From NCBI RefSeq assembly GCF_002786295.1, contig NZ_PGTC01000009.1, positions 1 through 64,000 on the forward strand: 64,000 nt of DNA, in the 5' to 3' direction. This DNA comes from Pseudooceanicola marinus (GTDB lineage: Bacteria > Pseudomonadota > Alphaproteobacteria > Rhodobacterales > Rhodobacteraceae). A program made the translations under genes and the position numbers. The notes below the pieces were generated by a model that had not been told where the DNA came from, did not search any database, and saw only the letters and a list, made by a program, of their open reading frames with translations. Below, one piece after another: positions 2,697 to 33,561 of the stretch. The stretch's first letter is position 1. Each line of letters starts with the position of its first letter.

Positions 2697-3875
2697 CTAT
2701 TGCCCCCTACCGCTGGTTTCCATCGCTTCGCTGAGCGTCTTGCGAGCCTGCATGTGCACGCGCGCCTGATTGACGGTTTCAACCGCGGTGAGGGATCCAT
2801 CACGGTAGCGGCGAATGGTGAGAGTGGCGGTGTCGGAGATGTCCTGCAGATCACCCTCGACCTCCGTTGCGTCGTCCGGCCGGGCCAGCCCCGCGATCTG
2901 CAGTCGCGCGTTCCCCTGGTTGGACCAGAACCAGGGCGGGCCCTGCGGCGGTGGGGTCTTTCCGGTGAGGATTGCGGCGACGCGGCGTGCCTGTTCAGAA
3001 GCGCAGGCCACCGATTCCAGCCGGACCGGGGCGGGGGAGAAGGGGTTGGGCGCCTCGGCACAGTCGCCGATGGCGAAGATGGCCGGGTCGCTTGTGGCGT
3101 GGGTGGCATCGGTGCAGATGCCATTGCCGATCTCAAGGCCCGCGTCGGCCGCCAGTTCCACGTTGGGCATCACGCCTGCGGCCAGCAGCAGGGCGTCATG
3201 GGCCTGGATCTCTCCATCCGACAGACGCAGCTGGCCCGGAAGCACCTCCTCGATCCGCGCCTCCGTCCGGATGATCGTGCCCCGGGCCTCGTGAAAGCGG
3301 CGGAACCAGTCCGACAGTTCGGGCGAGACGGAGCGCGACATGAGGCGGGGCGCGGCCTCATACAGGGTGACCTCGGTGCTGCTGCCGTGCAGCGCCGCCG
3401 CGGTTTCCAGACCGATGAAGCCGCCGCCGATGATCGCCAGGCGGTCCATGTCGGGCAGGGCGGCGATCAGGCGGCGGGTGTCGGCGGCATTGCGCAGGGC
3501 CATCGGTGTGGCCTCGGCCAGGCCGGGCAGCGGAGGCAGGCGATTGCGCGCGCCCGTCGCCAGGATCAGTTGGTCGTAGGGCAGGGTGCTGCCGTCCTCC
3601 AGGATCACCTGACGGTCCGCACGCCGGATCTCCCGCACCTGCTGGCCAAGCTGCAGGGAGATGTCCTGCTTGGTGTAGAGCGCTTCGCCGCGCAGGGGCA
3701 GCCAGCCTGCTTCGCCGCGCGATTTCAGCACGTCCTTGGACAGGGGTGGGCGCTGGTAGGGCAGCTCCGGATCGTCGCCGACTAGGGTGATCTGCCCTGC
3801 GTGCCCCTGTTGGCGCAGACCGAAGGCGCAGTCCACGCCGGCCTGGCCGCTTCCGATGATGACGACCTGGTTCAT
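2697..3875 (-). CDS. FAD/NAD-dependent ferredoxin reductase (P450 redox partner)
   Basis: This 392-residue flavoprotein resembles putidaredoxin/rhodocoxin reductases, which pass electrons from NADH to a [2Fe-2S] ferredoxin. It has an N-terminal FAD dinucleotide fold (VVIIGSGQAGVDCA), a second NAD-binding fold near residues 145-165 (LAIIGGGFIGLET) and the C-terminal FAD motif (IFAIGDCAE). The start ATG at 3875 overlaps the TRAP large-subunit stop (ATGA), so the two are translationally coupled. It is the last gene of the minus-strand operon P450-TRAP(P,Q,M)-reductase. The matching ferredoxin is encoded at 10548-10871 as a separate transcript with the same upstream motif. The family is certain; pairing with this P450 is inferred from context. 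Confidence 0.9.
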   Translation of the reverse strand: MNQVVIIGSGQAGVDCAFGLRQQGHAGQITLVGDDPELPYQRPPLSKDVLKSRGEAGWLPLRGEALYTKQDISLQLGQQVREIRRADRQVILEDGSTLPYDQLILATGARNRLPPLPGLAEATPMALRNAADTRRLIAALPDMDRLAIIGGGFIGLETAAALHGSSTEVTLYEAAPRLMSRSVSPELSDWFRRFHEARGTIIRTEARIEEVLPGQLRLSDGEIQAHDALLLAAGVMPNVELAADAGLEIGNGICTDATHATSDPAIFAIGDCAEAPNPFSPAPVRLESVACASEQARRVAAILTGKTPPPQGPPWFWSNQGNARLQIAGLARPDDATEVEGDLQDISDTATLTIRRYRDGSLTAVETVNQARVHMQARKTLSEAMETSGRGQ

Positions 3876-5188
3876 TGCATCAACTCCGGCAGGAAGAGGG
3901 TAATTGAAGGGAAGGCGATGAGCAGGGTCATCACCACGACCTCGCACATCAGGAACCAACCCACGCCGCGGAAGATCGTCCACATGGGAACCTCGTCTCC
4001 GACCACGGATTTCACCACGAAGACGTTCATCCCCATGGGCGGGGTGATCATCCCGATTTCGATATACTTCACCACGATGATGCCGAACCAGATCAGGTCC
4101 AGGTCCAGCGCCTTCATCATCGGCAGGAAGACCGGCATGGTGATCAGCATGATGCCCAGCGGGTCGAGGAACATCCCAAGGATCAGGAAGACGATCGACA
4201 GGGCGATCACCACCATTAGCGGATCGCCGGCCCAGCCCCCGACCATGTCGACCAGCATCGAGCTGACCCCGGTCAGCGACAGCAAGCGGGTGTACATGAC
4301 CGCGCCCATGCCGACGAAGAAGATCTGCGCGGTGACCGACATCGTCTCCTTCAGAGCCTCGATGAAGCGGCGGGTGGTCATGCGGCGTTGGACCAGGGCG
4401 ATGGCCAGGGCGAGGGCGGCGCCCACGGCCCCGGCTTCGGTGGGCGTGACGATGCCGCCGTAGAGGCCGCCGATGATGCCGAGGATCAGCACGCCAAGCG
4501 GCCAGGTTTCCTTCAGCGAGGACATGCGGTCGCGTTTCAGCGTGGCCAGATCCGCGTCGTCCAGCTTCGGCGCCAGGGTCGGGTTCAGACGGCACCGGAC
4601 CAGGATCATCACCACATAGGCGGCGCCGGTCAGCAGGCCGGGGATGACACCGGCGATCAGCAGCCGCGAGATCGAGACCTCGGCGAAGACGCCGTAGAGC
4701 ACCAGCAGGATCGAGGGCGGGATCAGCGCCGAGAGCGTGCCGGCCGAGGCGATTACCCCGGTGGCCAGCCCCTTGTCATAGCCGGTGCGCAGCATCTCCG
4801 GAATGGCCAGCCGGCCCATGGCCGCGGCCGAAGCCAGTGACGAGCCGCAGGCGGCGGCGAAGCCCGCGCTGGCCATGTTGGCGGCCACGGCCAGCCCGCC
4901 GGGCAGGGCCGAGAACCAAAGCCGGGCGGCGCGGAACAGGGCGCTGGAAATGCCGGTCTGGTTGGCGATGGCCCCCATGAGAAGGAACATCGGGATGGCC
5001 GTCAGATCCCAGCTGGCGGCGAAGGCAAAGGGCGTCTCGCGCAGGATCGACAGGGCGATGGGCCAGTTGCGCACATATGCCAGGCCGCAGACCGAGACGA
5101 CGCCCAGGGCGACACCGATGGGCGTGCGCAACCCGATGAGGGTCAGGAGGATGGCCAGGGTGACCAGGCCGAAGATCAGGCTGTCCAT
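3872..5188 (-). CDS. dctM: TRAP transporter large permease subunit
   Basis: This 438-residue, strongly hydrophobic DctM-family protein with about 12 membrane segments is the ion-coupled channel of a tripartite ATP-independent periplasmic transporter. Conserved features include the glycine-rich SAGTLSALIPPSILLVLYG segment and the C-terminal ITPPMGMNVFVV motif. It starts one base after the small permease gene and overlaps the ferredoxin reductase start by four bases, so the set is co-translated. The co-transcribed P450 suggests the cargo is an organic acid, probably an aromatic carboxylate; that is inference. Confidence 0.92.
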   Translation of the reverse strand: MDSLIFGLVTLAILLTLIGLRTPIGVALGVVSVCGLAYVRNWPIALSILRETPFAFAASWDLTAIPMFLLMGAIANQTGISSALFRAARLWFSALPGGLAVAANMASAGFAAACGSSLASAAAMGRLAIPEMLRTGYDKGLATGVIASAGTLSALIPPSILLVLYGVFAEVSISRLLIAGVIPGLLTGAAYVVMILVRCRLNPTLAPKLDDADLATLKRDRMSSLKETWPLGVLILGIIGGLYGGIVTPTEAGAVGAALALAIALVQRRMTTRRFIEALKETMSVTAQIFFVGMGAVMYTRLLSLTGVSSMLVDMVGGWAGDPLMVVIALSIVFLILGMFLDPLGIMLITMPVFLPMMKALDLDLIWFGIIVVKYIEIGMITPPMGMNVFVVKSVVGDEVPMWTIFRGVGWFLMCEVVVMTLLIAFPSITLFLPELMQ

Positions 5189-5189
5189 G

Positions 5190-5705
5190 TCACTCGGTCT
5201 CCGTCTTCGAGGTTGGGGTCGGCGTGGTCAGCCGTTCGGCCAGGCGCAGCAGCAGCACCAGCACCATGGCAGCGCCCGCCACGGGCAGCAGCCAGCGGGT
5301 GGGCCAGATCGGGAGGTAGCCGCCGAAGATTTCCCAGACCTCGGCGCGGCGGGTCTTGGACATGGCGGAAACCCAGGTCTGCCAGACGAAGGCGCCGACA
5401 TAGGCGATGGTCAGCAGCTCGACGAAGATCTCGGAGCCCTTGCGCATCCCGTCGGGCATGAGCGAGGTGAAGAGGTCGGCGCTGACATGCTGGTCGCGCA
5501 GGGTGACCCAGGCCAGCGGCAGGAAGGCCACGGCGATCATGTAGTAAGTGGCGGTGATCTCGCCGGTGCCGGGCAGCGGGTGGTGGAAGACGGTGCGCGA
5601 GACGACGTCGACGGTGACATGGGCCATCATCAGCGCACCGGCCAGCATCGCGACGTAGAAGAGGGCATCGGCCAGGCGCGACAGCATTCGGTTCAGGCGG
5701 GTCAT
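5190..5705 (-). CDS. dctQ: TRAP transporter small permease subunit
   Basis: This 171-residue protein has four predicted membrane segments and DctQ family features, including the membrane motif VDVVSRTVFHHPLPGTGEI near residues 30-48. It forms the membrane complex with the large subunit directly downstream. The solute receptor gene lies about 100 bases upstream on the same strand. The whole module sits between the P450 and ferredoxin reductase genes and is probably read from the P450 promoter. Confidence 0.9.
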   Translation of the reverse strand: MTRLNRMLSRLADALFYVAMLAGALMMAHVTVDVVSRTVFHHPLPGTGEITATYYMIAVAFLPLAWVTLRDQHVSADLFTSLMPDGMRKGSEIFVELLTIAYVGAFVWQTWVSAMSKTRRAEVWEIFGGYLPIWPTRWLLPVAGAAMVLVLLLRLAERLTTPTPTSKTETE

Positions 5706-5806
5706 GACGCCTCCGGTTGCAGGGGAATTGGGAGCGGGGAGAGGAAAACGGGGGAAGGCAGGGAGGCCGGGACGCCGAAGCGCCCCGGCCGGCCAGGCTC
5801 AGGGGA

Positions 5807-6916
5807 TCACAGGGATCCGGGGTCGACCTTGGAGAAGACCTCGTCCCAGAGCTTGGCGGAGAAAGCCTCGACATCGGTGCCGATCTCGGCGGAGTAGCCG
5901 CGCCAGGTTTCGACGTTGGCCAGGTAGGTGTCGAGCAGGGCCGCGGGATCGCTGACCCCGAGCTGCTTGCCGTTCTCGATCAGCCGCGCGCGGTCGGCCT
6001 CGACGAAACCGTCGACCATGGCGGTGATATCCTCGCCCGCGGCAACCAGCTCAACGCCCATTTCGGCCTGCTGGGCCTCGAAGCTTTGCTGGTCGCGCAG
6101 GACGTAGTTCCCGATCGTGTGCTTGGCGGTGACCAGGGCGGAGGCGCGCAGATGGGCGGCCTGCGCCTCGGGGGTCATGTCGAGGAAGGTTTCGCGGTTC
6201 ATCACGAAGCCCACGGCCGGTGCGGACACACCGAGCGGCAGATCGGTGACGTATTTGGCATATTCACCGTAGCCGTAGGTCTGCAGCCATTCCCGTGCCG
6301 CCATCAGGCAGTCCAGGCCACCGCGCTGCAGCAGGCTGACCGCCTCGGTCAGGGTGACGGACATCGGGGTCGCCCCGCCCATGGCCGCCATCTCGCCGTA
6401 GCCACCGGTGGAGCGCACGCGCATCCCCTTCAGGTCGGCCATGGTCGCGACGGGTTTGGTGCACATCAGGCGGTAGGAGGCCGAGGCGAAGCCGCCGAAG
6501 GGCAGGACGTTGTTGTCCTTCGCCTCTTCCAGGCACTCGGGGCAGTCGAGGAAAAGGGTTTGCACCGCCGCACCGGCCACGGCCACCGGATCATCGCCGG
6601 GGACCACGGTGGAATAGAGCAGCGTCAGCGAGGGCATGGCCTCGGGCGTGTAGACCGGGATCGCAAGGCCCGCCTGCATCAGGTTGTCGTCCACCGCCGC
6701 AAGCGTGCCGCGTCCGTCGGACAGCTGACCACCGGCGATCAGTTCCCACTGGATCTCGCCGCCGGTCTCCTCTTCGATCTGGGCGAAGGCCTTGGGCAGG
6801 GTGTCGGTGTTGAGGTAGTCCGACGCCGGCGGCCAGGAGCCGTAGATCGGCGTGTCGGCCAGGGCCGTGCCGGCGAAAAGGGCCGCCGTGGCGGCGAGGG
6901 TCATGGTGATTTTCAT
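5807..6916 (-). CDS. dctP: TRAP transporter solute-binding receptor
   Basis: This 369-residue periplasmic protein has a cleavable signal peptide (hydrophobic core at about residues 4-18, cleavage after ALA). It follows the DctP fold: a binding cleft and the conserved GMRVRSTGG segment, whose Arg normally holds the ligand carboxylate. It supplies substrate to the membrane subunits encoded downstream. A GGGAGGACCCAAG ribosome site precedes the ATG. It lies 77 bases after the P450 gene on the same strand. The ligand is not readable from sequence; a carboxylate fits both the receptor family and the CYP199-like P450. Confidence 0.9.
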   Translation of the reverse strand: MKITMTLAATAALFAGTALADTPIYGSWPPASDYLNTDTLPKAFAQIEEETGGEIQWELIAGGQLSDGRGTLAAVDDNLMQAGLAIPVYTPEAMPSLTLLYSTVVPGDDPVAVAGAAVQTLFLDCPECLEEAKDNNVLPFGGFASASYRLMCTKPVATMADLKGMRVRSTGGYGEMAAMGGATPMSVTLTEAVSLLQRGGLDCLMAAREWLQTYGYGEYAKYVTDLPLGVSAPAVGFVMNRETFLDMTPEAQAAHLRASALVTAKHTIGNYVLRDQQSFEAQQAEMGVELVAAGEDITAMVDGFVEADRARLIENGKQLGVSDPAALLDTYLANVETWRGYSAEIGTDVEAFSAKLWDEVFSKVDPGSL

Positions 6917-6993
6917 CTTGGGTCCTCCCTTGAATTGGTCCCTTGCTGGACCGCCACGCCCCCCTCCGGCGCGGCGAGATTTGTGGTGACGTC

Positions 6994-8196
6994 TCAGGCG
7001 GGCTCCACCTCGACCGGGATCGAGTGATAGCCGCGCAGCCAGTTGATGTGGATGCGTTCGGGCGTGCCGGTCAGGTGAATGCGGCGCACCTTGCGGGCCA
7101 AGGCCTTCAGCACGCTTTCAGCCTCCAGCCGGGCCATCATCTGGCCGACGCAGCCGTGGATCCCGGTGCCGAAGGCCAGGTGGCCGACGGGACGGCGGGT
7201 GATGTCGAAGCTGTCGGGGTTGTCCCACTTGGCGGGGTCTCGGTTCGCGGCCGACAGCCACATCAGAACCTTCTCCTCGGCCCCCATATGGACGCCGGCG
7301 AACTCGGTCGCGGCACGGGTGGTCCGCCCGATCACCGGGCTGGGCGCCCGGAACCGCAGGCCTTCCTCGAAGGCCGGGCGGGCCAGCGTCGGGTCGGCGC
7401 GCAGCATGTCCCATTGCTCTGGCCGTTCGATCAGCGACAGCAGGGTCAGGCCGATGCCGAAGACGGTGGTGTCGATCCCCGCCGAGATGAAGGCGCGCAC
7501 CAGCATGCCCGCGTCCTCGTGGCTGATCTCTCCGGCATGGGCCGCGGCGTAGATCTCGGCGCCGAAACTGTCGGGCAGGATGTTCTCTTCGCGCATCTGT
7601 TCGGTCACATAGGCGAAGGTGCCGTTCTCCTCGACGATGCGGCGGGCCTCCTGGTAGAGCTCGTTCTTCGGTCCCATCGCGTTGAAATTCAACGTGGAAT
7701 AGGGCATCAGATGCGACCGCCCCTCGGGCTTCAGCCCGGCGGCGTCGGGCAGTACCTTGAAGGGGAAGGCAAAGGCCAGGTCGGCGGCGATGTCGAAGCG
7801 GCGGCGCGCCACCAGGTCGTCGACCATGCGGTCGGCCTCGGCGGCCAGCCTGTCGCCCAGGGCGCGCAGGGCGCGTGGCGACAGCACCTTGGCCAGAACC
7901 TGTCGGTTGGGGGTGTGCACCGGCGGGTCCGCTTCGAGGATGATCGAGGGTTTGCGCCAGGGTTCATCACGGACGACATTGGTCATCCCGGTGCCGAAGG
8001 CGGACGAGAACCGGTTCCAGTCGTCGAAGATCTCGCGGATCTCGGCATCGCGCCCCGTGGCCCAGAACCCGTATTTCGGGATCCAGACCACCGGTCCGGC
8101 CTCACGGATCGCACGGTCCAGCGCGTCGGGGTCGTTACGGGCCTCGGCGCAGAACGGATCGACGTCGAGCACGGGCCGCGTGTCGGTCAGTGTCAT
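6994..8196 (-). CDS. Cytochrome P450, CYP199-like (aromatic carboxylate monooxygenase)
   Basis: This 400-residue soluble class I P450 has heme-ligand Cys349 (AFGTGIHGC), the E278xxR281 pair, and the acid-alcohol pair D242-T243 in the I-helix (SAGIDTT). The order of motifs closely matches CYP199A enzymes, which O-demethylate para-substituted benzoates: EPWRKPS then ILEADPP, FNAMGPKNEL, and VRAFISAGIDTT. Aligned from memory to CYP199A4, carboxylate contacts Arg92, Ser95, Arg243 and Ser247 correspond to R81, S84, R234 and S238. Ser244 is Ala235, and active-site Phe185 is Met174. The binding mode is therefore probably kept while the preferred ring substitution may differ. It heads an operon with a TRAP transporter and ferredoxin reductase. 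A shared motif lies 38-54 bases upstream of the start. Confidence 0.88.
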   Translation of the reverse strand: MTLTDTRPVLDVDPFCAEARNDPDALDRAIREAGPVVWIPKYGFWATGRDAEIREIFDDWNRFSSAFGTGMTNVVRDEPWRKPSIILEADPPVHTPNRQVLAKVLSPRALRALGDRLAAEADRMVDDLVARRRFDIAADLAFAFPFKVLPDAAGLKPEGRSHLMPYSTLNFNAMGPKNELYQEARRIVEENGTFAYVTEQMREENILPDSFGAEIYAAAHAGEISHEDAGMLVRAFISAGIDTTVFGIGLTLLSLIERPEQWDMLRADPTLARPAFEEGLRFRAPSPVIGRTTRAATEFAGVHMGAEEKVLMWLSAANRDPAKWDNPDSFDITRRPVGHLAFGTGIHGCVGQMMARLEAESVLKALARKVRRIHLTGTPERIHINWLRGYHSIPVEVEPA

Positions 8197-8233
8197 GATC
8201 TGGGGTCTCCTCCTCAGAATAGTTTAATGAGCA

Positions 8234-8250
8234 ACAAATTTACTTTGCAA
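8234..8250 (+). promoter_or_regulatory. Candidate MarR operator upstream of the P450 operon
   Basis: ACAAATTTACTTTGCAA is almost the same as sequences before the kinase gene (9991-10006) and the ferredoxin gene (10903-10919). Here it lies inside an imperfect inverted repeat, GAGCAACAAA (8230s) facing TTTGCAACTC (ends 8253). The surrounding ~60 bases are AT-rich against a GC-rich background, as expected for a promoter. Binding by the MarR protein at 10044 is inference. Confidence 0.55.
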
Positions 8251-8294
8251 CTCAAATTTTGTGCTGCGGCCAAATTCTCCGCATTGGGATCGTT

Positions 8295-9971
8295 TCAGAG
8301 GGTGCGCGCGGCGGCGTCGAGCCAGAGGGCGACGGCTTCGGCCCCCGGATCCACGTGTCCCAGCACGCGATCGCCGACATAGCTCGACCGGCCTCGGCGG
8401 GGGCGCATGTCCTTCGTGGCCTCTGCCCCGTCGCGGGCGGCCTGCGCGGCGCGGCGCAGGGCCTCCGCCGGATCCTCGGTGCCCTCCATCGCGCGGGCGG
8501 CGGGCCGCAGCGCGTCGACCATGGTCCGGTCCCCCGGTTCCGCCCCGCCAAGTGCCTGCAGGGCCTCGACCCCGGCGGCGAAGGCGCGGGCCAGTTGCGC
8601 GCCCGCGGCCCCTTCGGCCTGGTCCAGAGCATTGCCCGCGGCGGTGGCCAGGATCGCGTAGAGCGGGCCGGAGGTGCCGCCGGTGCTGCGCCGCACGATG
8701 GCGCCGACCTCGCGCCAGAAAGGCGCGCCGGACAGGGTGGCAAGACGCGGCTTGGCGGCCAGGATGGCCTCTGCCCCGGAGGCGAGAGAGCGGCCGATGT
8801 CGCCGTCGCCCACGATCTGATCCATGCGGGTCAACTCGGGCTCGGCGGCGATGATCGCGTCGCAACAGGCCAGGGTGACGCGCAGCAGGGTGGGATCCCC
8901 TTCGCCGGTGGACGTCTCCCCGGTCGGCTGTGCAGGGGCCGGCACCACCGAGGTGGCGGCGGGGCAGGTGGCCGGCACCCAGGCGGGCGCCGCAGTGGAG
9001 GCGTCCAGCGCCGTGCGGCTGTCCTCATCAAGCCGCATCAGCGACAGCGAGACACCGGCCATGTCGATGGCGGTCAGCAGCGTGCCGGCGACCACCCGTT
9101 CGACCCGCAGACCCTGGCGGGCGCAGGCGGTCAGGGCGTCGCCGGTGACGATGGCCAGCTCCATGGGCGGGGTGGCACCCAGGTTGTTGACCAGCAGACA
9201 GACGGGAGTGTCGGCGGCCAGGTCCCGGTCGGCCACGATCTTCTCCACCATCAGGGCGGTCAGTTCCCGGGACGAGGACAGGGCGACACGGTCCAGCCCG
9301 GCCTCGCCGTGGATCCCCAGGCCCAGCTCGATCTCCTCGGGGCCCAGCTCGAAATTCGGACGCCCGGCGGCGGGGACGGTGCAGGGCGAGAGGGCCACAC
9401 CCATGGAGCCCACGGCGGCGATGGCCGCCTCGGCGCGGGCCTTGACCTCGGCCAGGGGCAGCCCGGCCTCGGCGGCCGCGCCTGCGATCTTGTGCACCAG
9501 CGCGGTGCCCGCAATGCCGCGACGCCCGGCGGTTTCCTCGGCGCTGCCCAGGGCGCAGTCATCATCGACCACCACCAGCTCGGTCTCGATCCCTTCGCCG
9601 CGGGCGATCTGTGCCGCCAGGCCGAAGTTCAGCCGGTCGCCGGTGTAGTTCTTCACGATCAACAGGACGCCGCCCGGTCCGGCCACGGCGCGGATCCCGT
9701 CTAGAACCTCGTCCGTCGACGGCGAGGCGAAAACATCGCCCGCCACGGCGGCGGTCAGCATGCCCTTGCCCACGAAGCCCGCATGGGCGGGCTCATGACC
9801 CGAGCCGCCCCCGGACAGCAGGGCCACCTTGCCCGCGCCAGTCACCGCCTCCAGGTCGGCACGCAGGACGATGGTGCGACCCTCGATCAGGCGCAGGCCC
9901 GGCTGGCTGCGCACATAGCCCGACAGGGCGTCCGGCACGACCGAGGCTACCTCGTTGATCAGCTTTTTCAT
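8295..9971 (-). CDS. Dihydroxyacetone-kinase-type protein, fused DhaK-DhaL
   Basis: This 558-residue protein has the layout of single-chain ATP-dependent dihydroxyacetone kinases. The N-terminal DhaK domain (about 1-330) has GGGSGHEPAHAGFVGKGML near 53-71 and His221 (GLGIHGEAG), the residue that covalently binds the hydroxyketone. A Pro/Ala-rich linker follows. The C-terminal DhaL domain has the nucleotide/Mg motif VGDGDIG. A strong GGGAGGAACC site precedes the ATG at 9971. It is divergent from the MarR gene and shares its intergenic operator. Substrates in this family include dihydroxyacetone, erythrulose and related ketoses. Its placement in a P450 regulon is unusual, and its role there is unknown. 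Confidence 0.85.
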   Translation of the reverse strand: MKKLINEVASVVPDALSGYVRSQPGLRLIEGRTIVLRADLEAVTGAGKVALLSGGGSGHEPAHAGFVGKGMLTAAVAGDVFASPSTDEVLDGIRAVAGPGGVLLIVKNYTGDRLNFGLAAQIARGEGIETELVVVDDDCALGSAEETAGRRGIAGTALVHKIAGAAAEAGLPLAEVKARAEAAIAAVGSMGVALSPCTVPAAGRPNFELGPEEIELGLGIHGEAGLDRVALSSSRELTALMVEKIVADRDLAADTPVCLLVNNLGATPPMELAIVTGDALTACARQGLRVERVVAGTLLTAIDMAGVSLSLMRLDEDSRTALDASTAAPAWVPATCPAATSVVPAPAQPTGETSTGEGDPTLLRVTLACCDAIIAAEPELTRMDQIVGDGDIGRSLASGAEAILAAKPRLATLSGAPFWREVGAIVRRSTGGTSGPLYAILATAAGNALDQAEGAAGAQLARAFAAGVEALQALGGAEPGDRTMVDALRPAARAMEGTEDPAEALRRAAQAARDGAEATKDMRPRRGRSSYVGDRVLGHVDPGAEAVALWLDAAARTL

Positions 9972-9990
9972 TGGTTCCTCCCATTGCAGT

Positions 9991-10006
9991 TTGCAATTAA
10001 ACTTGT
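9991..10006 (-). promoter_or_regulatory. Candidate MarR operator between kinase and marR genes
   Basis: On the minus strand this reads ACAAGTTTAATTGCAA, the second copy of the motif shared with 8234-8250 and 10903-10919 but one base shorter in the spacer. It sits in the 72-base gap between the divergent kinase and MarR genes. Occupancy there could control both, including autoregulation. Confidence 0.55.
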
Positions 10007-10043
10007 TTCCGTAGCATCTTGCGACATCAAGAGGAGAGCGCCG

Positions 10044-10535
10044 ATGGCCGATGACCAGATTGTCACCGATGGGGACCTCTCCGTTCGCGCCGACAGTTAT
10101 GCCCCCTACTTCCTGTCGTTGATCAACAACCGCCTCTCCTGGGGGGCGTCGCAGCTTTACCTGACCCTTTTCGACCTGGGTCTGAACGAATGGCGCATCC
10201 TGTCCGCCCTGCGCAACGAACCCGGGGTGCAGGCCCTGCGCGTCTCCGAGATGGTCGCGATGAACAAGTCCGTGGTCAGCCGCTCGACCCGCCGGCTGGA
10301 AGAGCTGGGCCTGGCCGTGGCGCGGCTGGAACTGGGCAAGCGACGCCTGTTCCTGACACAGAAGGGCGCCGAGATGCACGACCGGATCATCGAGATCGCC
10401 CTGCGCCGTGAGGCGGCGCTGTTGGACGGAATCGAGGGCGAGGAGCGCGAGGTGCTCTTCGGCCTGCTGCGCCGGATGACCGAGAACCTGTCGAAGGTCG
10501 AGGCCGTGGATCGCGAACTGACCGGCAAGAGCTGA
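10044..10535 (+). CDS. MarR-family transcriptional regulator of the P450 regulon
   Basis: This 163-residue winged-helix protein has a helix-turn-helix around residues 60-90 (VSEMVAMNKSVVSRSTRRLEE) and a wing with the GKRRLFLTQKG segment. The MarR family usually represses nearby genes until an aromatic or phenolic ligand binds. A GAGGAGAGCGCC ribosome site precedes the ATG. It is divergent from the kinase gene and convergent with the ferredoxin gene. The common motif before three neighbouring transcripts makes it the obvious candidate regulator of P450, transporter, kinase and ferredoxin. The effector is probably the P450 substrate, by inference. Confidence 0.88.
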   Translation: MADDQIVTDGDLSVRADSYAPYFLSLINNRLSWGASQLYLTLFDLGLNEWRILSALRNEPGVQALRVSEMVAMNKSVVSRSTRRLEELGLAVARLELGKRRLFLTQKGAEMHDRIIEIALRREAALLDGIEGEEREVLFGLLRRMTENLSKVEAVDRELTGKS

Positions 10536-10547
10536 GGTCGCATTGGC

Positions 10548-10871
10548 CTAGTACTGACAGGACGGCATCTGCACGACCATGCCGTCCATCTCCGGGGTGA
10601 CCGGGATCTGGCAGCCCAGACGGCTGCGCGCGGTCACCTCGTCGGCGGCGCTTTCCAGCATGTCATCCTCGATCGGGGCCCGTGGCGGGACACGGCTGTC
10701 GTCCTCCTCGGCGATATAGACGTGGCAGGTGGCGCACATGGCGGAGCCGCCGCATTCGCCCACGATGCCGTCGAGGCCGTTGCTGATGGCGGCCAGCATC
10801 AGGCTGGTGCCGGGTTCCACCTCGACCGGGTGGTCGTCGCCTTCGGATGTCCGGAATACGATTCGGGTCAT
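10548..10871 (-). CDS. [2Fe-2S] ferredoxin (adrenodoxin/putidaredoxin type)
   Basis: This 107-residue protein has the cluster ligands CGGSAMCATC (three of the four cysteines, spaced Cx5Cx2C) and a fourth Cys in RLGCQIP, the pattern of P450-type ferredoxins. Acidic stretches (EEDD, EDDMLE) are typical of the reductase- and P450-docking face. AAGGAGGACCAAC gives a strong ribosome site at 10871. It is encoded apart from the P450 operon but preceded by the same motif. With the reductase at 2697 it completes a class I electron-transfer chain. Confidence 0.93.
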   Translation of the reverse strand: MTRIVFRTSEGDDHPVEVEPGTSLMLAAISNGLDGIVGECGGSAMCATCHVYIAEEDDSRVPPRAPIEDDMLESAADEVTARSRLGCQIPVTPEMDGMVVQMPSCQY

Positions 10872-10902
10872 GTTGGTCCTCCTTATGGAGGTTTATATAT
10901 CA

Positions 10903-10919
10903 ACAAGTTTATCATGCAA
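10903..10919 (+). promoter_or_regulatory. Candidate MarR operator upstream of the ferredoxin
   Basis: ACAAGTTTATCATGCAA is the third copy of the motif, 32-48 bases before the ferredoxin start and in the same orientation relative to its gene as the copy before the P450. The AT-rich run TTTATATATCAAC overlaps it and is a likely -10 region. Confidence 0.55.
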
Positions 10920-24288: not shown

Positions 24289-25380
24289 ATGAAGATCGCA
24301 ATTCTGGGTGGAGGCAACGGCTCGCTCGCCGGGGCAGGGGATTTCGCACTGGCAGGGCACGACGTGCGTCTGTGGCGGCGCAACCCCGAGGATGTGGCCG
24401 AACACGCCAAGCGCGGCGACACCATCACCGTGCGCGACGGCAAGGGCACCCATGAGGGCAAGCTGGCGCTGGTCACCAGCGACATCGCCGAGGCGCTGGA
24501 GGGGGCGGAGCTGATCCTCTGCCCGATCCCGGCTCCGGCCCATGCCGACCTGGCCAGCGTCATCGCCCCGCACCTGAAGCCGGGCATGGTGATCTACCTG
24601 CCGCCGGGCACGCTGGGCACGATGATCCTGGCCAATGCCGCGCGCGAGGCCGGCACGCTGGAGGGCGTGGCCTTCGCCGAGACGGGCACGCTGCCCTGGC
24701 TGGTGCGCAAGCATGACTTCTCCGAGGTCGTCATCTCCACCCGCGCCGTGCGTCTGCCCACGGGCGTCTACCCGGTGGCCGACACCGATCGCGCGCTGAA
24801 GGTGATCGACACGGCCTTCCCCGGTGTGATCGAACGCTGCGAGGACGTGCTGTCTGCCGCGCTGATGAACGCCGGCGCCATCATCCATGCGCCGCTGATC
24901 ATGATGAACGCCGCGCCCTTGGAGCATTTCGAGGCCTGGGACATCCACAACGAGGGCACCCAACCCTGCGTGCGCACCGTCACCGACCAGCTGGACGCGG
25001 AACGCATCGCCGTGCGCGAGGCCTTCGGCTACGGCGCGCCGCACTTCCCGCTGGCGGATTACTACCGCGACGACAGCGAGATGTGGATGTACGACCGCGA
25101 GGCCCGCGCCAACCTGACCGACAGTGGCGACTGGCGCGAGAAGATCGACCTGCACGCGCATCGCTACATGATGGAAGACACCCGCCTGGGCCTGTCGCTG
25201 ATCTGCTCCATGGCCGAGGTGGCGGGCATCGACGTGCCCGTGGCCCGCGCCCTGATGACGCTGGGCGGTACCATCAACCACCAGGACTTCATGCAGACCG
25301 GTCGGCCCCTGTCCGCCGTGGGCCTGGGCGGCCTGTCGATGGACGAGCTTAAGGCCAAGGCGGAAGGACCCTCGGCATGA
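24289..25380 (+). CDS. Opine (octopine/nopaline) dehydrogenase-family protein
   Basis: This 363-residue NAD(P)-dependent enzyme has a Rossmann start (KIAILGGGNGSLAGAGDFALAGHDVRLW) and a C-terminal helical domain (from about 180: SAALMNAGAIIHAPLIMMNAAPLEHF). Family members oxidise or form N-carboxyalkyl amino acids. The ATG at 24289 starts exactly at the nucleotide-binding strand, after GCGGGGACAAG. Its stop overlaps the next dehydrogenase by four bases (ATGA). With a second dehydrogenase and a TRAP transporter behind it, uptake and oxidation of an opine-like or related acid is plausible. The substrate is unproven. Confidence 0.82.
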   Translation: MKIAILGGGNGSLAGAGDFALAGHDVRLWRRNPEDVAEHAKRGDTITVRDGKGTHEGKLALVTSDIAEALEGAELILCPIPAPAHADLASVIAPHLKPGMVIYLPPGTLGTMILANAAREAGTLEGVAFAETGTLPWLVRKHDFSEVVISTRAVRLPTGVYPVADTDRALKVIDTAFPGVIERCEDVLSAALMNAGAIIHAPLIMMNAAPLEHFEAWDIHNEGTQPCVRTVTDQLDAERIAVREAFGYGAPHFPLADYYRDDSEMWMYDREARANLTDSGDWREKIDLHAHRYMMEDTRLGLSLICSMAEVAGIDVPVARALMTLGGTINHQDFMQTGRPLSAVGLGGLSMDELKAKAEGPSA

Positions 25381-26354
25381 CGCAGACCATCGCCTGTCTT
25401 GGCGCCGGCCGGATGGGGCGGGGGATCGCCCTGGTCTTCGCCTATGCCGGTCACCCGGTCGCCCTGGTCGATTTCAAACCGCGCGAGGCGGCTGATTTCG
25501 ACCGGCTGCAGGCCGAGGCCCGGACGGAGATCACCGAGACCCTGACCATGATGGCGCGCTTCGGCATGTTCGAGGCGGCCCTGGTGCCGACCATTGCCAC
25601 CCGGGTGACCGTGGTGCCCGAGGTTGGGGCGCCCGAGGCGCTGGGCGCGGCCGATGTGGTCTTCGAAGGCTTCCCCGAGGTGCCCGAGCTGAAGCGTGAG
25701 GCCCTGGCCCGCGCCGAGGCGCTGATGAAGCCCGATGCGATCCTGGCCTCGACCACCTCCACCATCCTGGTGGATGACCTGTCGCCCGCCCTGGCGCGGC
25801 CCGAACAGTTCCTCAATGCCCACTGGCTGAACCCGGCCTTCCTGGTGCCGCTGGTGGAACTGTCGCCGGGCAAGGCCACCGCGCCCGAGGTCACTGCGCA
25901 GCTGTCGGCGCTGTTGGAGGCGACCGGCAAGGTGCCCGTCACCTGCGCCGCGGCGCCGGGCTACATGATCCCGCGCATCCAGCAGGTCGCCATGAACGAG
26001 GCCGCCCGCATGGTCGAGGAAGGAGTCGCCAGCGCCGAGGATCTGGAAAAGGCGATCCGCTACGGCTTCTCCTTCCGCTTCTCCGTGCTGGGGCTACTGG
26101 AGTTCATCGACTGGGGCGGGGGCGACATCCTCTACTACGCCTCCGAGTACCTGTCGAAGGCGCTGGACAACCCCCGCTACGAGGCGCCGCAGGTCATCCG
26201 CGACAACATGGATGCGGGCCATATCGGCCTGAAGACCCGGCAGGGCTTCCTCAACTACGAGGGGATGGACGTGGCCGCCTACCGCGAGGCGAAGCTGCGG
26301 GCCCTGGCCGAACGGCTGAAGGCCGAGGACCTGATGCGCCCGCCCGTCGCCTGA
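25377..26354 (+). CDS. 3-hydroxyacyl-CoA dehydrogenase-family NAD-dependent dehydrogenase
   Basis: This 325-residue protein has an N-terminal NAD-binding fold (CLGAGRMGRGIALVFAYAGH). It also has the catalytic region NAHWLNPAFLVPLVEL, where the His of the family's His-Glu dyad lies, and a C-terminal helical domain (GYMIPRIQQVAMNEAARMVEEGVAS). Relatives act on 3-hydroxyacyl-CoA, L-gulonate or carnitine. It is translationally coupled to the opine-dehydrogenase-like gene, so both probably serve one pathway for a hydroxy or amino acid. Confidence 0.85.
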   Translation: MTQTIACLGAGRMGRGIALVFAYAGHPVALVDFKPREAADFDRLQAEARTEITETLTMMARFGMFEAALVPTIATRVTVVPEVGAPEALGAADVVFEGFPEVPELKREALARAEALMKPDAILASTTSTILVDDLSPALARPEQFLNAHWLNPAFLVPLVELSPGKATAPEVTAQLSALLEATGKVPVTCAAAPGYMIPRIQQVAMNEAARMVEEGVASAEDLEKAIRYGFSFRFSVLGLLEFIDWGGGDILYYASEYLSKALDNPRYEAPQVIRDNMDAGHIGLKTRQGFLNYEGMDVAAYREAKLRALAERLKAEDLMRPPVA

Positions 26355-26413
26355 CGGTTGAATCCCCTCTGCGCGCGGGCTGAGAAATTGGGCCGCGTGC
26401 GACAGCACTAGAT

Positions 26414-26434
26414 GGGATTTTCGAAAGAAATCCC
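26414..26434. promoter_or_regulatory. Inverted repeat upstream of the TRAP operon (candidate GntR operator)
   Basis: GGGATTT (26414-26420) and AAATCCC (26428-26434) form a perfect 7-base inverted repeat. It encloses GATTTTCGAAA (26416-26426), an 11-base sequence repeated at 30367-30377 before the GntR gene. The site is 139 bases before the solute receptor start. The nearby TTGTGCAAAATATGTTTTGAC is AT-rich and promoter-like. Control by the GntR protein is inference from the shared sequence. Confidence 0.5.
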
Positions 26435-26572
26435 TATTGTGCAAAATATGTTTTGACTCCCCCGCCCGGGCGGCAAAATCATCGACCTATCCCAAGGCCC
26501 CGTCCCGCCTGTGCGAGGCAGGGGCAACAAGCCGGACAACCGGCGTCTTACCCCAACAGGAAAGAGAGACCC

Positions 26573-27589
26573 ATGACCCACGAAAGCCGTTCCAGACGTC
26601 CGGCCCGCCCCGCAGGCCGTTTCGCCCTGGCCGCCCTCGCGGCGCTCGGCCTGCAGGCCGGCGCTGCCCAGGCCCAGGAAGTGCTGAAAGCCGTCAGCGC
26701 TTTCCCCGTGCCGATGTTTTGGACCCAGGATTTCCTGCACTTCGTCGACGAGGTGAACGAGACCGGCGAAGGTGTCGTCCAGATCCAGATGATGGGCGGC
26801 CCCGAGGTCTTCCCGCCGACCCAGCAGGTCGATGCGTTGGAACGTGGCATCGTCGACATCCAGTACGGCCCCTCGACCTATCACCTGGGCTCGGCGCCCG
26901 AGATCGACGCGCTGGTCGGCTCCAACGTGACGCCCGAAGTGGCGCGCGAAGGCGGCGGCTTCGATCTGATGCAGGACATCCTGCTGGAGCGTCTGGGCGT
27001 GCGGCTGATGGCGCTTGGCCAGTCCGGCCTGCAGTTCCACATCTGGTCGGTGGACGAACCCACCGTGGGCGAGGATGGCAGCGTCGACATGAACGGTGCA
27101 CGCCTGCGCTCGCAGCCGATCTACCAGGGCTTCTTCGAGAGCCTCGGCGCCGTGCCCGTCTCTGCCCCCGTGCCGGAGGTCTATACCGGGCTGGAACGTG
27201 GTACCTTCGACGGCATCGGCTGGCCGATCGCCGGCGTGACCGATATGTCCTGGGATAAGTACCTGAAATATCGCATTGATCCGGGCTTCTTCAACACCGA
27301 CCTGGTGATCTTCATGAACCCCGAAAGCTACGAGGGCCTCAGCGATGAGGCGCGCGAGATCATCGACGCCGCTGCCCTGAACTATGAGCTGACCTCGCGC
27401 GATCGCCTGGCCAGCGTGACGGCGGAGACCGACGCGGCGGTGCGGGAGGGCGGCATCGAGGTCATCACCCTGGAGGGCGAGGCGGCCCAGGCCTACCTCG
27501 ACGGCGCCTACGGCTCCGCCTGGGCACGGCTGGAGGCCTCGGACAGCGCCCATTACGACGCACTGCGCGATGCCTTCTACCAGGAATGA
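26573..27589 (+). CDS. dctP: TRAP transporter solute-binding receptor
   Basis: This 338-residue periplasmic receptor of the DctP family begins with an Arg-rich signal peptide (RPARPAGRFALAALAALGLQAGAAQAQ). It retains the NGARLRSQPIYQGFF segment, whose Arg usually binds a carboxylate, and an aromatic-rich cleft (QFHIWS, GIGWPIAGVTDMSW). GGAAAGAGAGACCC is its ribosome site. It starts a P-Q-M transporter operon downstream of two dehydrogenase genes. The ligand is probably the acid those enzymes use. Confidence 0.9.
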   Translation: MTHESRSRRPARPAGRFALAALAALGLQAGAAQAQEVLKAVSAFPVPMFWTQDFLHFVDEVNETGEGVVQIQMMGGPEVFPPTQQVDALERGIVDIQYGPSTYHLGSAPEIDALVGSNVTPEVAREGGGFDLMQDILLERLGVRLMALGQSGLQFHIWSVDEPTVGEDGSVDMNGARLRSQPIYQGFFESLGAVPVSAPVPEVYTGLERGTFDGIGWPIAGVTDMSWDKYLKYRIDPGFFNTDLVIFMNPESYEGLSDEAREIIDAAALNYELTSRDRLASVTAETDAAVREGGIEVITLEGEAAQAYLDGAYGSAWARLEASDSAHYDALRDAFYQE

Positions 27590-27672
27590 GCGTCGGCCCC
27601 TGAGCTGACCCTGGCGGGGTGCGCCCAGGCCGCGCCCCCGTTCTCTTTCAAGACAACAGGACATCCAGACCC

Positions 27673-28164
27673 ATGGCCAGGCTCTATGACCGTGCCATCA
27701 CGCTGCTGGCCGCGACCGGGGCGCTCAGTCTCCTCGGGATCACGCTGATGATCGTGGTGGACGTGGTGCTGCGCAACACCGGCTTTCGTCCCTTGCAGTC
27801 GACCAGCGCGCTTTCGGAATATGCCATGCTCTACTCGACCCTCTGCGCCGCCCCCTGGCTGGTGCGCGAGAACGGGCATGTGGCGATCACCGCCTTCGCC
27901 TCGATGATGCCGACGCGGCTGTGTTTCGCCGTATCGATGGCCGTGCAGATCCTGTCGGTGCTGGTGCTGGCCGTGCTGGCCTGGCGCGCGGGCGCCGTGG
28001 GCTGGGACCGCTACGCCGCCGGCAACATGGACATGCGGTCCGTCACCCTGCCGGGCTGGCTGCTTTACGCCTGGCTGTCGATGGGGCTGGCGCTGACGGC
28101 GGTGGAGTTCGCGCGCCTTGCCCTGCGCGGCCGGGTCTACACCGGCTCTGCGGGGGGCGCGTGA
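27673..28164 (+). CDS. dctQ: TRAP transporter small permease subunit
   Basis: This 163-residue DctQ-type protein has four membrane segments. The family region is LIGITLMIVVDVVLRNTGFRPLQSTSALSEY-like, near residues 18-50. The ATG at 27673 follows a weak ribosome site. Its stop shares a base with the large-subunit start (TGATG), indicating coupled translation. Confidence 0.88.
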   Translation: MARLYDRAITLLAATGALSLLGITLMIVVDVVLRNTGFRPLQSTSALSEYAMLYSTLCAAPWLVRENGHVAITAFASMMPTRLCFAVSMAVQILSVLVLAVLAWRAGAVGWDRYAAGNMDMRSVTLPGWLLYAWLSMGLALTAVEFARLALRGRVYTGSAGGA

Positions 28165-29477
28165 TGGAGTGGTATGCCGCCACCGCCCTCCTGCTGGGCG
28201 GTCTTTTGTTGCTGATGTTCCTCGGGATGCCCGTGGCCGTGGCCTTCCTGGCAATCAACACCCTGGGCGTGCTGGTCTTCATGGGCGGCCTCGGGGGCAT
28301 CGACCAGCTGGTGTCGAATGCCACCGACTCGATCACCACCTTCTCGCTGGTGCCGGTGCCGCTGTTCACCATCATGGGGGAGCTTCTGTTCCACACCGGC
28401 CTGGCGGTGCGGGTCTTCGACGCGCTGGATATGTGTTTCGGCCGCCTGCGCGGGCGGCTCAGCTACATGACCGTGGGGGGCGGAACGCTCTTCGCGACGC
28501 TCTCGGGCTCGTCCATGGCGAACACGGCGATGCTGGGCTCGACCCTGATGCCCGACATGCTGCGCCGGGGCTACAAGCCGCATCTGATCATGGGGCCGAT
28601 CATCGCCACGGGGGGCGTCGCGATGATCATCCCGCCGTCCTCGCTGGCGGTCCTGCTGGGCTCGCTGGCCCGCATCGACGTGGGCGGCCTGCTGATCGCC
28701 GGGCTGATCCCGGGGCTGATCTTGATGGCGCTTTACGTGGCGGTGATCCGCATTTCCATCGCGCTGGACCCCGACGCCGCGCCCTCCTACGACGTCGATC
28801 GCCCGCCGCTGACAACCATCCTGCGCACCCTGGTGGTCAACGTCCTGCCGATGAGCCTCGTGGTCTTCTCGGTCATCGGGCTGATCCTGCTGGGCTGGGC
28901 GACGCCCACGGAATCCGCGGCCTTCGGCGCGGTGTCGGTGGGCGTGCTGGCGCTGTGCTACGGGAAGCTGTCGGTCGAGGTGCTGATGAAGGCGTTGATG
29001 GGCACGCTGAAGGTGTCGGGCATGATGCTGATGATCATCATCGGCTCCACCACCTTCTCGCAGCTGCTGGCCTTTTCGGGGGCCTCCTCGGGCATGATCT
29101 CCTTCGCTACGGGGTTCGATCTGGGCCACTACGGGATGCTGGCGGCGATGCTGGCGGTGCTGATCGTGCTGGGCATGTTCATGGATCAGCTGTCGATCAT
29201 GATGCTGACCCTGCCGATCTTCATCCCGCTGACCCAGATGTACGGGATCGACCCGGTGTGGTTCGGCGTCGCCATGCTGCTGGCGCTGGAGATGAGCCTG
29301 GCGACGCCGCCCTTCGGCCTGCTGCTGTTTGTCATGGCGGGGGTGGCGCCCAAGGGCACGACGCTGGGCCAGATCGCGCGCGCCGTGCTGCCCTACCTGG
29401 CCTGTTCGATCCTGCTGATCCTGGCCCTTGTGATCTGGCCCGGGCTGGCCACCTGGCTGCCCGGCATGATCCGCTAG
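28164..29477 (+). CDS. dctM: TRAP transporter large permease subunit
   Basis: This 437-residue DctM-family channel has about 12 membrane segments, with signature stretches FATLSGSSMANTAMLGSTLMPDML, GGVAMIIPPSSLAVLLGSLA and the C-terminal ATPPFGLLLFVM. It completes the second TRAP transporter in the window. It ends 40 bases before a strong bidirectional terminator shared with the convergent GntR gene. Confidence 0.92.
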   Translation: MEWYAATALLLGGLLLLMFLGMPVAVAFLAINTLGVLVFMGGLGGIDQLVSNATDSITTFSLVPVPLFTIMGELLFHTGLAVRVFDALDMCFGRLRGRLSYMTVGGGTLFATLSGSSMANTAMLGSTLMPDMLRRGYKPHLIMGPIIATGGVAMIIPPSSLAVLLGSLARIDVGGLLIAGLIPGLILMALYVAVIRISIALDPDAAPSYDVDRPPLTTILRTLVVNVLPMSLVVFSVIGLILLGWATPTESAAFGAVSVGVLALCYGKLSVEVLMKALMGTLKVSGMMLMIIIGSTTFSQLLAFSGASSGMISFATGFDLGHYGMLAAMLAVLIVLGMFMDQLSIMMLTLPIFIPLTQMYGIDPVWFGVAMLLALEMSLATPPFGLLLFVMAGVAPKGTTLGQIARAVLPYLACSILLILALVIWPGLATWLPGMIR

Positions 29478-29516
29478 CGCGACAGCCGACCGGATCGGCC
29501 CGCCGGAAACGACAAG

Positions 29517-29543
29517 GGCCCGCGCTGTTGGCGCGGGCCTTTT
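29517..29543. terminator. Bidirectional intrinsic terminator between TRAP and GntR genes
   Basis: GGCCCGCGC (29517-29525) pairs perfectly with GCGCGGGCC (29531-29539) around a five-base loop and is followed by TTTT. On the other strand the arm is followed by CTTGTCG. It separates two convergent genes. Confidence 0.8.
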
Positions 29544-29565
29544 GCATGGGGAGACTCGCGGCCGG

Positions 29566-30300
29566 TCAGGTGCCCCGGTCGGTTTCATCCTCGCCCTTCA
29601 GCAGGCTCTCGATGATCTCGCCGGTGCGGCGGAACCCCTTGGCCATCAGCGCCACGGCGGCCTCTTCGTCCCGGGCCACGGCCCGTTCGGCGATCTCGCG
29701 ATGCTCGGCCAGGTAGGATTTCTTCAGGAAGACATTGCCGCCCCGGGTGCTGAAATAGGGCCAGCGGTAGCGTTGCGTCTGGTTGTAAAGCTGTGTGGAA
29801 AAGACCTTCATCCAGTTCGACCCGCTTTCGCTGACCAGCGCATGGTGGAAGGCGCGGTGGCGGTCCTCCAGCTGGTGCACCTGCTCCTCGGTCACCTCGG
29901 CGCCCAGCTCCAGGTTGCGTTCAAAGGCCCGCGACAGGGCATGGAAGGTGCCCATCACGCGGCCTTCCCAGTCGTCGTCGCCGCGGCGGATCGAGCGGCG
30001 GAAGGCCTCGCAGTCGATCAGGATGCGGGTGTCGATCGCGTCCCACATCTCCTCCGTCGAGATCTCCGTCACGCGGAAGCCGCGCGCGGCGTAGGACACC
30101 ACAAGCTGTTCGCTCTGCAGCCGGTTCAGCGCCTCCCGCAGGGGCGAGAAACTGAACCCGTAGCGTTCCTTCAGCGCCTGCAGGCGCAGCGGGCTGCCGG
30201 GCGCGAAATGGCCCTTCAGGATGTCCGCGCGGATGCTGTCATAGGCGAGCTGCCCCAGGGTCTGGTCAGGCTGGCGTTCGGTCAGGTTTTCAGACGCCAT
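29566..30300 (-). CDS. GntR-family (FCD domain) regulator
   Basis: This 244-residue protein has an N-terminal GntR winged helix (AYDSIRADILKGHFAPGSPLRLQALKERYGFSFSPLREALNRL). The all-helical FCD ligand domain has metal-type residues D (ID CEAFRRS region) and histidines in RHRAFHHALV and LAEHREI. FCD regulators usually sense carboxylates. It is convergent with the TRAP operon. A GATTTTCGAAA sequence occurs before both its own gene and the TRAP operon, pointing to joint control. Confidence 0.9.
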   Translation of the reverse strand: MASENLTERQPDQTLGQLAYDSIRADILKGHFAPGSPLRLQALKERYGFSFSPLREALNRLQSEQLVVSYAARGFRVTEISTEEMWDAIDTRILIDCEAFRRSIRRGDDDWEGRVMGTFHALSRAFERNLELGAEVTEEQVHQLEDRHRAFHHALVSESGSNWMKVFSTQLYNQTQRYRWPYFSTRGGNVFLKKSYLAEHREIAERAVARDEEAAVALMAKGFRRTGEIIESLLKGEDETDRGT

Positions 30301-30366
30301 CGCGGGCCTCCCTTGCTGTCCGGGCAGAGTAACCGCCTGCCGCGACGGGCGAAATGCGAAAGCGCA

Positions 30367-30377
30367 GATTTTCGAAA
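30367..30377. promoter_or_regulatory. Second copy of the candidate GntR operator
   Basis: GATTTTCGAAA matches all 11 bases of 26416-26426 before the TRAP operon, with the inner palindrome TTTCGAAA. It lies 67 bases upstream of the GntR start and is consistent with autoregulation. Confidence 0.45.
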
Positions 30378-30436
30378 TAATGGGCGAAGCGAACCGTCCG
30401 GGGCTTGCTCCGGCGGCACTTCGTCAGGGGGGCGCG

Positions 30437-30820: not shown

Positions 30821-30876
30821 GATTCTCCTTTCGTTATCCCCCGTCTGGAACAACTTGGCTTCCGGCGCATTAAACT

Positions 30877-31635: not shown

Positions 31636-31821
31636 TCGCCCCCGGTCCGACAGGGCCAGAGTTGTCCCACGGCCCTTGGGCCCCCTTACGTCAGGGGGCA
31701 GTCTGGCCGACGTTGCGTCCCGGTGGCGGCCCTGTCCCATACGGTTGTCGACGGATGGCGCGCCGTGCGCCACTATCGCTCGCAGAGGCGCCCGGGGAGG
31801 GGGCCGCTGTGGGAGGCACAG

Positions 31822-33480: not shown

Positions 33481-33502
33481 ACCGGGCTGGGGAGGTCCGG
33501 GC

Positions 33503-33545: not shown

Positions 33546-33561
33546 CGGTCAAGGCGGCGCC

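Follow-up and report, generated by a model that had tools for sequence, protein, structure and literature searches.

A triose kinase gene is coupled to a clade of CYP199-like cytochrome P450s with altered pocket residues

Results

Gene content of the module

We analysed a 64,000-nucleotide stretch of the Pseudooceanicola marinus genome (contig NZ_PGTC01000009.1, positions 1 to 64,000 of the forward strand; assembly GCF_002786295.1), hereafter the window, which carries a gene module around a CYP199-like cytochrome P450 (Table 1). A first-pass annotation had called the genes for the P450, a tripartite ATP-independent periplasmic (TRAP) transporter, a ferredoxin reductase (FdR), a [2Fe-2S] ferredoxin (Fdx) and a MarR-family regulator, all of which were confirmed together with their coordinates, and had read them as a complete uptake and oxidation unit for an aromatic carboxylate, led by the P450. 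That unit lacked its most constant partner, a fused dihydroxyacetone kinase (DAK), which had been overlooked. The kinase gene lies between the P450 and MarR genes, directly upstream of the P450 on the same strand and separated from it by 98 bp, so that the kinase, not the P450, heads the gene run. The start of the FdR gene overlaps the stop of the DctM gene, and a Shine-Dalgarno-like purine-rich stretch was found upstream of every module gene start. The genes for DctP, DctQ and DctM are adjacent and their PF03480, PF04290 and PF06808 matches all exceed the cut-offs, identifying a TRAP transporter. The predicted fold model of DctP has a predicted local distance difference test score (pLDDT) of only 42, and the solved receptors nearest to it by profile are ones that we take to be indole- or mandelate-type binders.

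Table 1. Coordinates of the module features in the window
Feature	Positions	Strand or location	Supporting matches
FdR, NADH-type ferredoxin reductase	2697-3875	-	Pyr_redox_2 and Reductase_C; best NCBIfam match HcaD, under its equivalog cut-off
DctM, TRAP large permease	3872-5188	-	PF06808 and TIGR00786, both over cut-off
DctQ, TRAP small permease	5190-5705	-	PF04290
DctP, TRAP periplasmic receptor	5807-6916	-	PF03480; nearest by profile 4pgn, 4nap, 4p56
CYP199-like cytochrome P450, 400 aa	6994-8196	-	PF00067; CYP199A4/A2 nearest in PDB
DAK, fused DhaK-DhaL dihydroxyacetone (triose) kinase, 558 aa	8295-9971	-	PF02733 (E 1e-116), PF02734 (E 1e-45)
Palindromic operator-like site GTTTAATTGCAAAC	9989-10002	MarR/kinase intergenic region	conserved among alphaproteobacterial loci
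MarR-family regulator, divergent from DAK	10044-10535	+	PF12802, barely over cut-off (27.6 vs 27 bits)
[2Fe-2S] ferredoxin (Fdx), presumed redox partner of the P450	10548-10871	-	PF00111

A P450 clade that keeps the carboxylate contacts and changes the pocket

The window P450 matches PF00067 with 82.3 bits (cut-off 22.8) and has the heme-ligating cysteine and the acid-alcohol pair (C349, D242 and T243, aligned with C358, D251 and T252 of CYP199A4). Its closest solved structures are CYP199A4, CYP199A2 and PbdA (9g9q), with E from 7e-116 to 2e-103, and its aligned sequence shares 48.3% identity with CYP199A4 and 49.1% with CYP199A2. Lines of >40% identity for a P450 family and >55% for a subfamily are given in an excerpt of PMC8197338. 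Placement in the CYP199 family, proposed in the first-pass annotation, thus withstood the check, and the 48-49% identity to the two CYP199A sequences lies below the line for subfamily A, subfamilies B and J-M being without a reference sequence.

In CYP199A4 numbering, the window P450 keeps R92, S95, R243, S247, D251, T252 and F182, with R81, S84, R234 and S238 of the window corresponding to R92, S95, R243 and S247. Ser244 is replaced by Ala235 and Phe185 by Met174, these residue assignments having been made correctly at first pass, and further changes are V181N, V295S, F298I and T395W. A single scan of a genome collection with six P450 peptides, and with no kinase query, identified 24 loci, a lower bound since such a scan is limited by its pattern. 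We defined a clade of 22 P450s, comprising that of the window, a second copy in the same host and those of 20 loci in Alphaproteobacteria, Betaproteobacteria and Actinomycetota, with Aquibium L032 included despite having no linked DAK. For comparison we used 16 other CYP199-like P450s, excluding pHaemato_2, pPyeei_2 and pBradyCB82_2 (22-24% identity), two of which served as outgroup. Locus L050, with three in-frame stops, was kept out of the tree and the counts; it is a decayed relative in Nesterenkonia pannonica (L050 10001-13763), in which the P450 frame has those stops, the reductase match is fragmented and there is no DAK match.

A branch with support 100/99, recovered in 100% of bootstrap trees, separates the 22 P450s from the rest of the tree. 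V181N, V295S, F298I and T395W are present in 22/22 clade members and in 0/16 of the other CYP199-like P450s. Likewise, S244 is lost in all 22 (13 A, 8 T and 1 V) and retained in 16/16 of the others, and R92, S95, R243, D251 and T252 are invariant in both groups. According to an excerpt of PMC11530827, the PbdA pocket is lined by equivalents of V295, F298 and F185 and its equivalent of S244 binds the carboxylate; the PbdA variant S237A has about eightfold lower affinity and remains active. By our own mapping of PbdA onto the CYP199A4 and window numbering, the window P450 departs from the PbdA-type set (contacts R84, S87 and S237; pocket F173, F176, F291 and V288): R92, S95 and F182 are kept, and S244 is changed to A, F185 to M, F298 to I and V295 to S. 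The invariant contacts combined with the pocket substitutions suggest that carboxylate recognition looks kept in the clade and that the pocket looks more polar and less bulky. An uptake-plus-oxidation unit is well supported. Given that hydrophobic pocket residues become polar or smaller, the changed ring specificity proposed at first pass is probably rather a change in the group at the oxidised position.

Linkage of the kinase to the P450 across genomes

A DAK gene lies within the P450 gene cluster in 21/22 clade members, in several gene orders. The order is DAK-P450-dctPQM in alphaproteobacterial TRAP loci, P450-Fdx-MarR-DAK in Ramlibacter, and P450-receptor-DAK-permeases-ATPase-reductase in 4/7 loci of Actinomycetota (L040, L042, L044 and L051). 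Two further actinobacterial loci (L041 and L043) have P450-DAK-reductase, with the ABC genes absent, and in L045 the DAK stands in last place. The transporter is swapped: one group has TRAP genes, and most loci of the other have an NMT1-type ABC system. The reductase system is swapped as well, being either Fdx with FdR or a PDR-type protein. The MarR cluster was found in 20/25 loci, with L042 and L043 also detected by tblastn match, and the constant core is the P450, the kinase and nearly always MarR. The MarR, DAK, P450 and TRAP genes are found again in genomes of three families of Alphaproteobacteria, with protein identities of 50-97%, a recurrence that exceeds chance. The P450-TRAP-reductase order highlighted in the first-pass annotation is present in the window as described; it is a local variant, shared only with Oceanicola sp. 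S124 (same genus, 94% P450 identity) and, with Fdx inserted, with Aquamicrobium. FdR does not follow DctM in the other alphaproteobacterial TRAP loci, and in the 12 alphaproteobacterial TRAP loci besides that of the window Fdx lies past MarR in nine, after DctM in two and is absent in L038.

By comparison, 12 other CYP199-like loci with adequate flanks have no DAK of their own; these are 12/16 of the comparison P450s, the remainder being L010 and L011, with flanks of only 1.5 kb, and two PDB sequences without flanks. Eight of the 56 matched plasmid records were examined. The linked DAK is the sole DhaK in 13/17 genomes (10 alphaproteobacteria, Ramlibacter and two actinobacteria), and four actinobacteria have one or two extra DhaK each; this census covers genomes with a linked DAK, L033 and L043 being outside it. 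A DAK-like protein occurs in 127 of 390 genomes of the host order (Rhodobacterales), with at least 70% identity only in the four that have the P450 at E <1e-130. Among 385 genomes from the host class, a clade-type P450 was found in the host only; the one other match in this class sample (G798, 50%) is of the CYP199A pocket type, and no DAK was found within the 19 kb examined around it. The linked kinase is no chance neighbour drawn from a family with many members, and its coupling to the P450 is strong.

The linked kinases

The window kinase has both Dak1 and Dak2 domains and matches the Citrobacter freundii dihydroxyacetone kinase (DHAK; 1un9) with E 3e-93, retaining the GIHGE motif of the covalent histidine and the DhaL aspartate triad, as expected of a fused DAK. 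With a copy 10 residues short at the start, it scored 523.3 bits against the cut-off of 574.95 bits for the NCBIfam equivalog dak_ATP and 595.5 bits against 492 bits for the broader subfamily NF011049. All 21 linked kinases have His220, Asp114 and Lys109 (C. freundii numbers), residues with known roles in the C. freundii enzyme, and all 20 that include DhaL carry its aspartate triad. With these residues retained, the kinase probably acts on dihydroxyacetone or glyceraldehyde, or else on a closely related C3/C4 hydroxy-carbonyl compound.

In the DAK tree, the alphaproteobacterial and Ramlibacter kinases form a group that includes one unlinked DAK (L100), and the actinobacterial kinases form a separate group; the deep forks are weak, so that the kinase may have been recruited once or twice. 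Another unlinked DAK (L126 6189-13741), 51% identical to that of the window, lies near the linked ones in the tree and is possibly close to their source; its neighbours, named by eye from sequence starts, are a sugar-kinase-like gene and an ABC transporter.

A conserved palindrome between the MarR and kinase genes

The palindrome GTTTAATTGCAAAC is exact in 8/12 aligned alphaproteobacterial loci, and its core GTTT-N6-AAAC is present in 11/12. The host genome has no exact match other than the copy at 9989-10002, and its sites with two mismatches number three, against two for a reversed control, which we take as chance. Within the window, one match with ≤3 mismatches was found and shuffled sequences give an expectation of 0.39, so that support for an operator comes from conservation rather than from the count. 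A simple reading of the palindrome is a putative operator of the adjoining MarR. The GTTT-N6-AAAC dyad was not found at the MarR junction in Ramlibacter, in the actinobacterial loci or in L032 and L038. The dyad does stand just upstream of the Fdx gene in L035 (7251) and L046 (7246), and Fdx may belong to the same regulon. An imperfect form was seen by eye in the window at 10872-10910, upstream of Fdx. A search for a sigma-70-like promoter found none, and terminator-like sites were at chance level.

Further P450 copies in the host

The host has a second copy of the pair on contig C30 (L052 12668-19412 and L053 2-6814), with a P450 74-75% identical to that of the window and a DhaK of 369 aa that keeps the histidine motif. 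The same run holds two sulfatases (64% alike), a formylglycine-generating enzyme (FGE) and a PhnT/PhnU-like ABC transporter. Altogether the host genome has two Dak1 genes, each beside a clade-type P450, and one Dak2, the only DhaL, which is that of the window. A third CYP199-like P450 (43%), also on contig C30 (L053 7930-16891), is accompanied by Fdx, FdR, MarR, a branched-chain-type ABC transporter and a class III alcohol dehydrogenase (frmA), all in a run other than that of the second copy's DhaK, which is about 9.5 kb away. This third unit looks like an ordinary O-demethylase unit and serves as an internal control.

Genes flanking kinase-free and kinase-linked P450s

Some kinase-free loci have the gene partners that an O-demethylase would be expected to have: frmA-fghA-gfa lie beside a Rhizobium P450, and a Streptomyces CYP199-like locus has a 33% frmA-like match. 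The kinase-linked loci hold a single frmA, fghA or gfa match, a 29% one to frmA at the L044 edge. In Rhodococcus opacus (L068), a PDR/VanB-type reductase and the 4-hydroxybenzoate 3-monooxygenase gene (pobA) stand beside the CYP199-like P450, and the reductases of the seven actinobacterial kinase-linked loci are 44-50% identical to that reductase. All 13 proteobacterial genomes have a PobA match over the cut-off, one of these matches containing an in-frame TAG, and the six actinobacterial genomes were below it.

In the window, a hybrid histidine kinase with a receiver domain (511-2400) is encoded just downstream of FdR on the same strand; no cluster partner for it was found in the other loci at the clustering thresholds used. 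A second TRAP set (26573-29477, in the region 24289-35214) lies near an octopine-dehydrogenase-like gene and two GMC oxidoreductases.

Discussion

A candidate pathway and its alternatives

The P450 retains aromatic-carboxylate contacts and has a triose kinase maintained beside it, which suggests an oxidation that releases a triose. We favour, with somewhat less than even confidence, a reaction in which the P450 O-dealkylates a carboxylated aryl ether with a hydroxylated C3 (glyceryl-like) group and the kinase takes the released triose. In such a pathway, the TRAP system would import an aromatic acid as the presumed ligand of DctP, with the module presumably under MarR control, and Fdx and FdR would deliver electrons to the P450, which would hydroxylate the ether carbon bearing the short hydroxylated chain, for example in a glyceryl ether of 4-hydroxybenzoate or vanillate. 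The hemiketal or hemiacetal would then collapse to a hydroxybenzoate and either dihydroxyacetone from a 2-aryl ether (Ar-O-CH(CH2OH)2 to ArOH + dihydroxyacetone) or glyceraldehyde from a 1-aryl ether (Ar-O-CH2-CHOH-CH2OH to ArOH + glyceraldehyde). The kinase would make dihydroxyacetone phosphate (DHAP) or glyceraldehyde 3-phosphate, and the phenol would enter ring catabolism such as that through PobA. The polar pocket fits a substrate with free hydroxyls, as do the two sulfatases and FGE of the second copy, which would be expected near it if the substrate bears such groups. Stated in full, the proposal is a new pathway present in bacteria from two phyla: carboxylated aryl glyceryl ethers (e.g., oxidised lignin beta-ether end groups) would be taken up and split by a dedicated polar-pocket CYP199 subfamily (N181/S295/I298), and the triose set free along with hydroxybenzoate would be recovered as DHAP by a co-inherited kinase. 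The proposal presupposes the aromatic part and also that a nutrient of this kind exists, and we put it forward tentatively, as more doubtful than the reaction itself.

Several points count against the favoured reading. This analysis did not document any carboxylated glyceryl aryl ether occurring in nature, and the end group in the excerpt of PMC12423867 is of the beta-O-4 vanillin type rather than a carboxylate glyceryl ether. We also assume that the side chain at position 181 faces the substrate. The search peptide NFNAMGPK covers columns 181 and 185, so that the alphaproteobacterial loci could have been selected for both V181N and F185M; columns 295, 298 and 395 are outside all six peptides, and the Asn at the next conserved column of NFNAMGPK occurs in only L051 among the seven actinobacterial loci. 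PobA is present in 127/196 genomes of the host order, which is too common to tell about the aromatic part and leaves it a weak clue, and no aromatic gene common to the loci was found among ten flanking proteins, mostly actinobacterial, and four of L034. The linked DAKs are not one clean group in their tree, Aquibium L032 has no DAK nearby and only a 44% one on another contig, and the second host copy has a DhaK without DhaL and no MarR alongside. A transketolase-like match (31%) is present in L045.

Of the alternatives, the one that survives best, although we consider it unlikely, is that another heteroatom link is cut, by N- or S-dealkylation or with a C4 or amino-alcohol chain as in beta-blocker acids, and that DAK acts on erythrulose, hydroxyacetone or similar compounds. 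DAK-family enzymes accept more than dihydroxyacetone and the pocket is more polar, both in agreement with this possibility; nevertheless, the residues of the dihydroxyacetone site are the same as in C. freundii DHAK, and no further gene cluster common to alphaproteobacterial, betaproteobacterial and actinobacterial loci was found at the clustering thresholds. An ordinary O-demethylase, with formaldehyde condensed to dihydroxyacetone by a transketolase-type reaction and captured by DAK in a sink resembling the dihydroxyacetone cycle, seems improbable to us. Dihydroxyacetone synthase and dihydroxyacetone kinase form a known formaldehyde route, the host genome yields two Transketolase_N matches (13/14 control genomes also have this family), and PbdA demethylates para-methoxybenzoates (PMC11530827, in excerpt). 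However, the L045 match is the only transketolase-like one in 27 loci, formaldehyde-oxidation genes accompany kinase-free P450s instead, and V295S and F298I would be left unexplained. We give still less credence to phosphorylation of the whole oxygenated product, as a trap or an activation, in place of a small fragment: the tight linkage needs only that the P450 product is the kinase substrate, but in DAK a histidine within a small site forms a covalent bond to the substrate, and the residues of that site are kept. Least probable of all is the original view of a unit for oxidising an aromatic carboxylate, with no direct part for the kinase, a view that agrees with the retained CYP199 carboxylate contacts and with the lack of a linked kinase in Aquibium and is opposed by linkage in 21/22 members from two phyla, in differing orders, of what is usually the only DhaK of the genome.

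Relation to known systems

CYP199A4 and CYP199A2 of Rhodopseudomonas palustris, which presumably work with a [2Fe-2S] ferredoxin and a reductase, share with the window P450 the family (by the 40% rule), R92, S95, R243 and the D251-T252 pair; it differs from them in identity (48-49%, under the 55% line), the loss of S244, F185M, V295S, F298I, V181N, the linked kinase and TRAP genes in the run. C. freundii DHAK is likewise a fused DhaK-DhaL protein with His220 and the other compared residues, but belongs to glycerol and dihydroxyacetone metabolism, whereas the kinase described here is tied to a P450. LigDEFG of Sphingobium SYK-6 carry out glutathione-dependent beta-aryl ether cleavage of an aryl ether on a C3 side chain; the candidate pathway would also cut an aryl ether on a C3 chain, by different chemistry, and we claim no sequence kinship. 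PbdAB of Rhodococcus jostii RHA1 resembles the module in CYP199 structure and contacts, unlike it being an O-demethylase of p-methoxybenzoates with a pocket as in CYP199A4, and a kinase goes unmentioned in the excerpted text. TRAP uptake of lignin-derived aromatics is known from TarPQM of R. palustris (PMC5812351, in excerpt), a system for aromatic acids that, in contrast to the present one, is clustered with an ABC transporter. Each part of the module is thus of a known kind; neither a CYP199 and TRAP pairing nor the coupling of a P450 with a triose kinase was found in searches of an open-access library, in which most subscription papers are missing.

Implications

If the proposed substrate is correct, the module would represent a new pathway that cleaves aryl ethers with an oxygenase and whose leaving group, instead of being formaldehyde, serves as a nutrient. 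CYP199-type P450s would then do more than demethylate, one clade having been redirected to ethers with an alkyl part worth eating. The kinase would be a sequence marker, and a kinase beside a P450 with S295 and I298 would provide a rule for predicting P450 function from gene neighbourhood. The P450 would also be a testable enzyme for aryl-ether links with a C3 chain, of relevance to lignin conversion.

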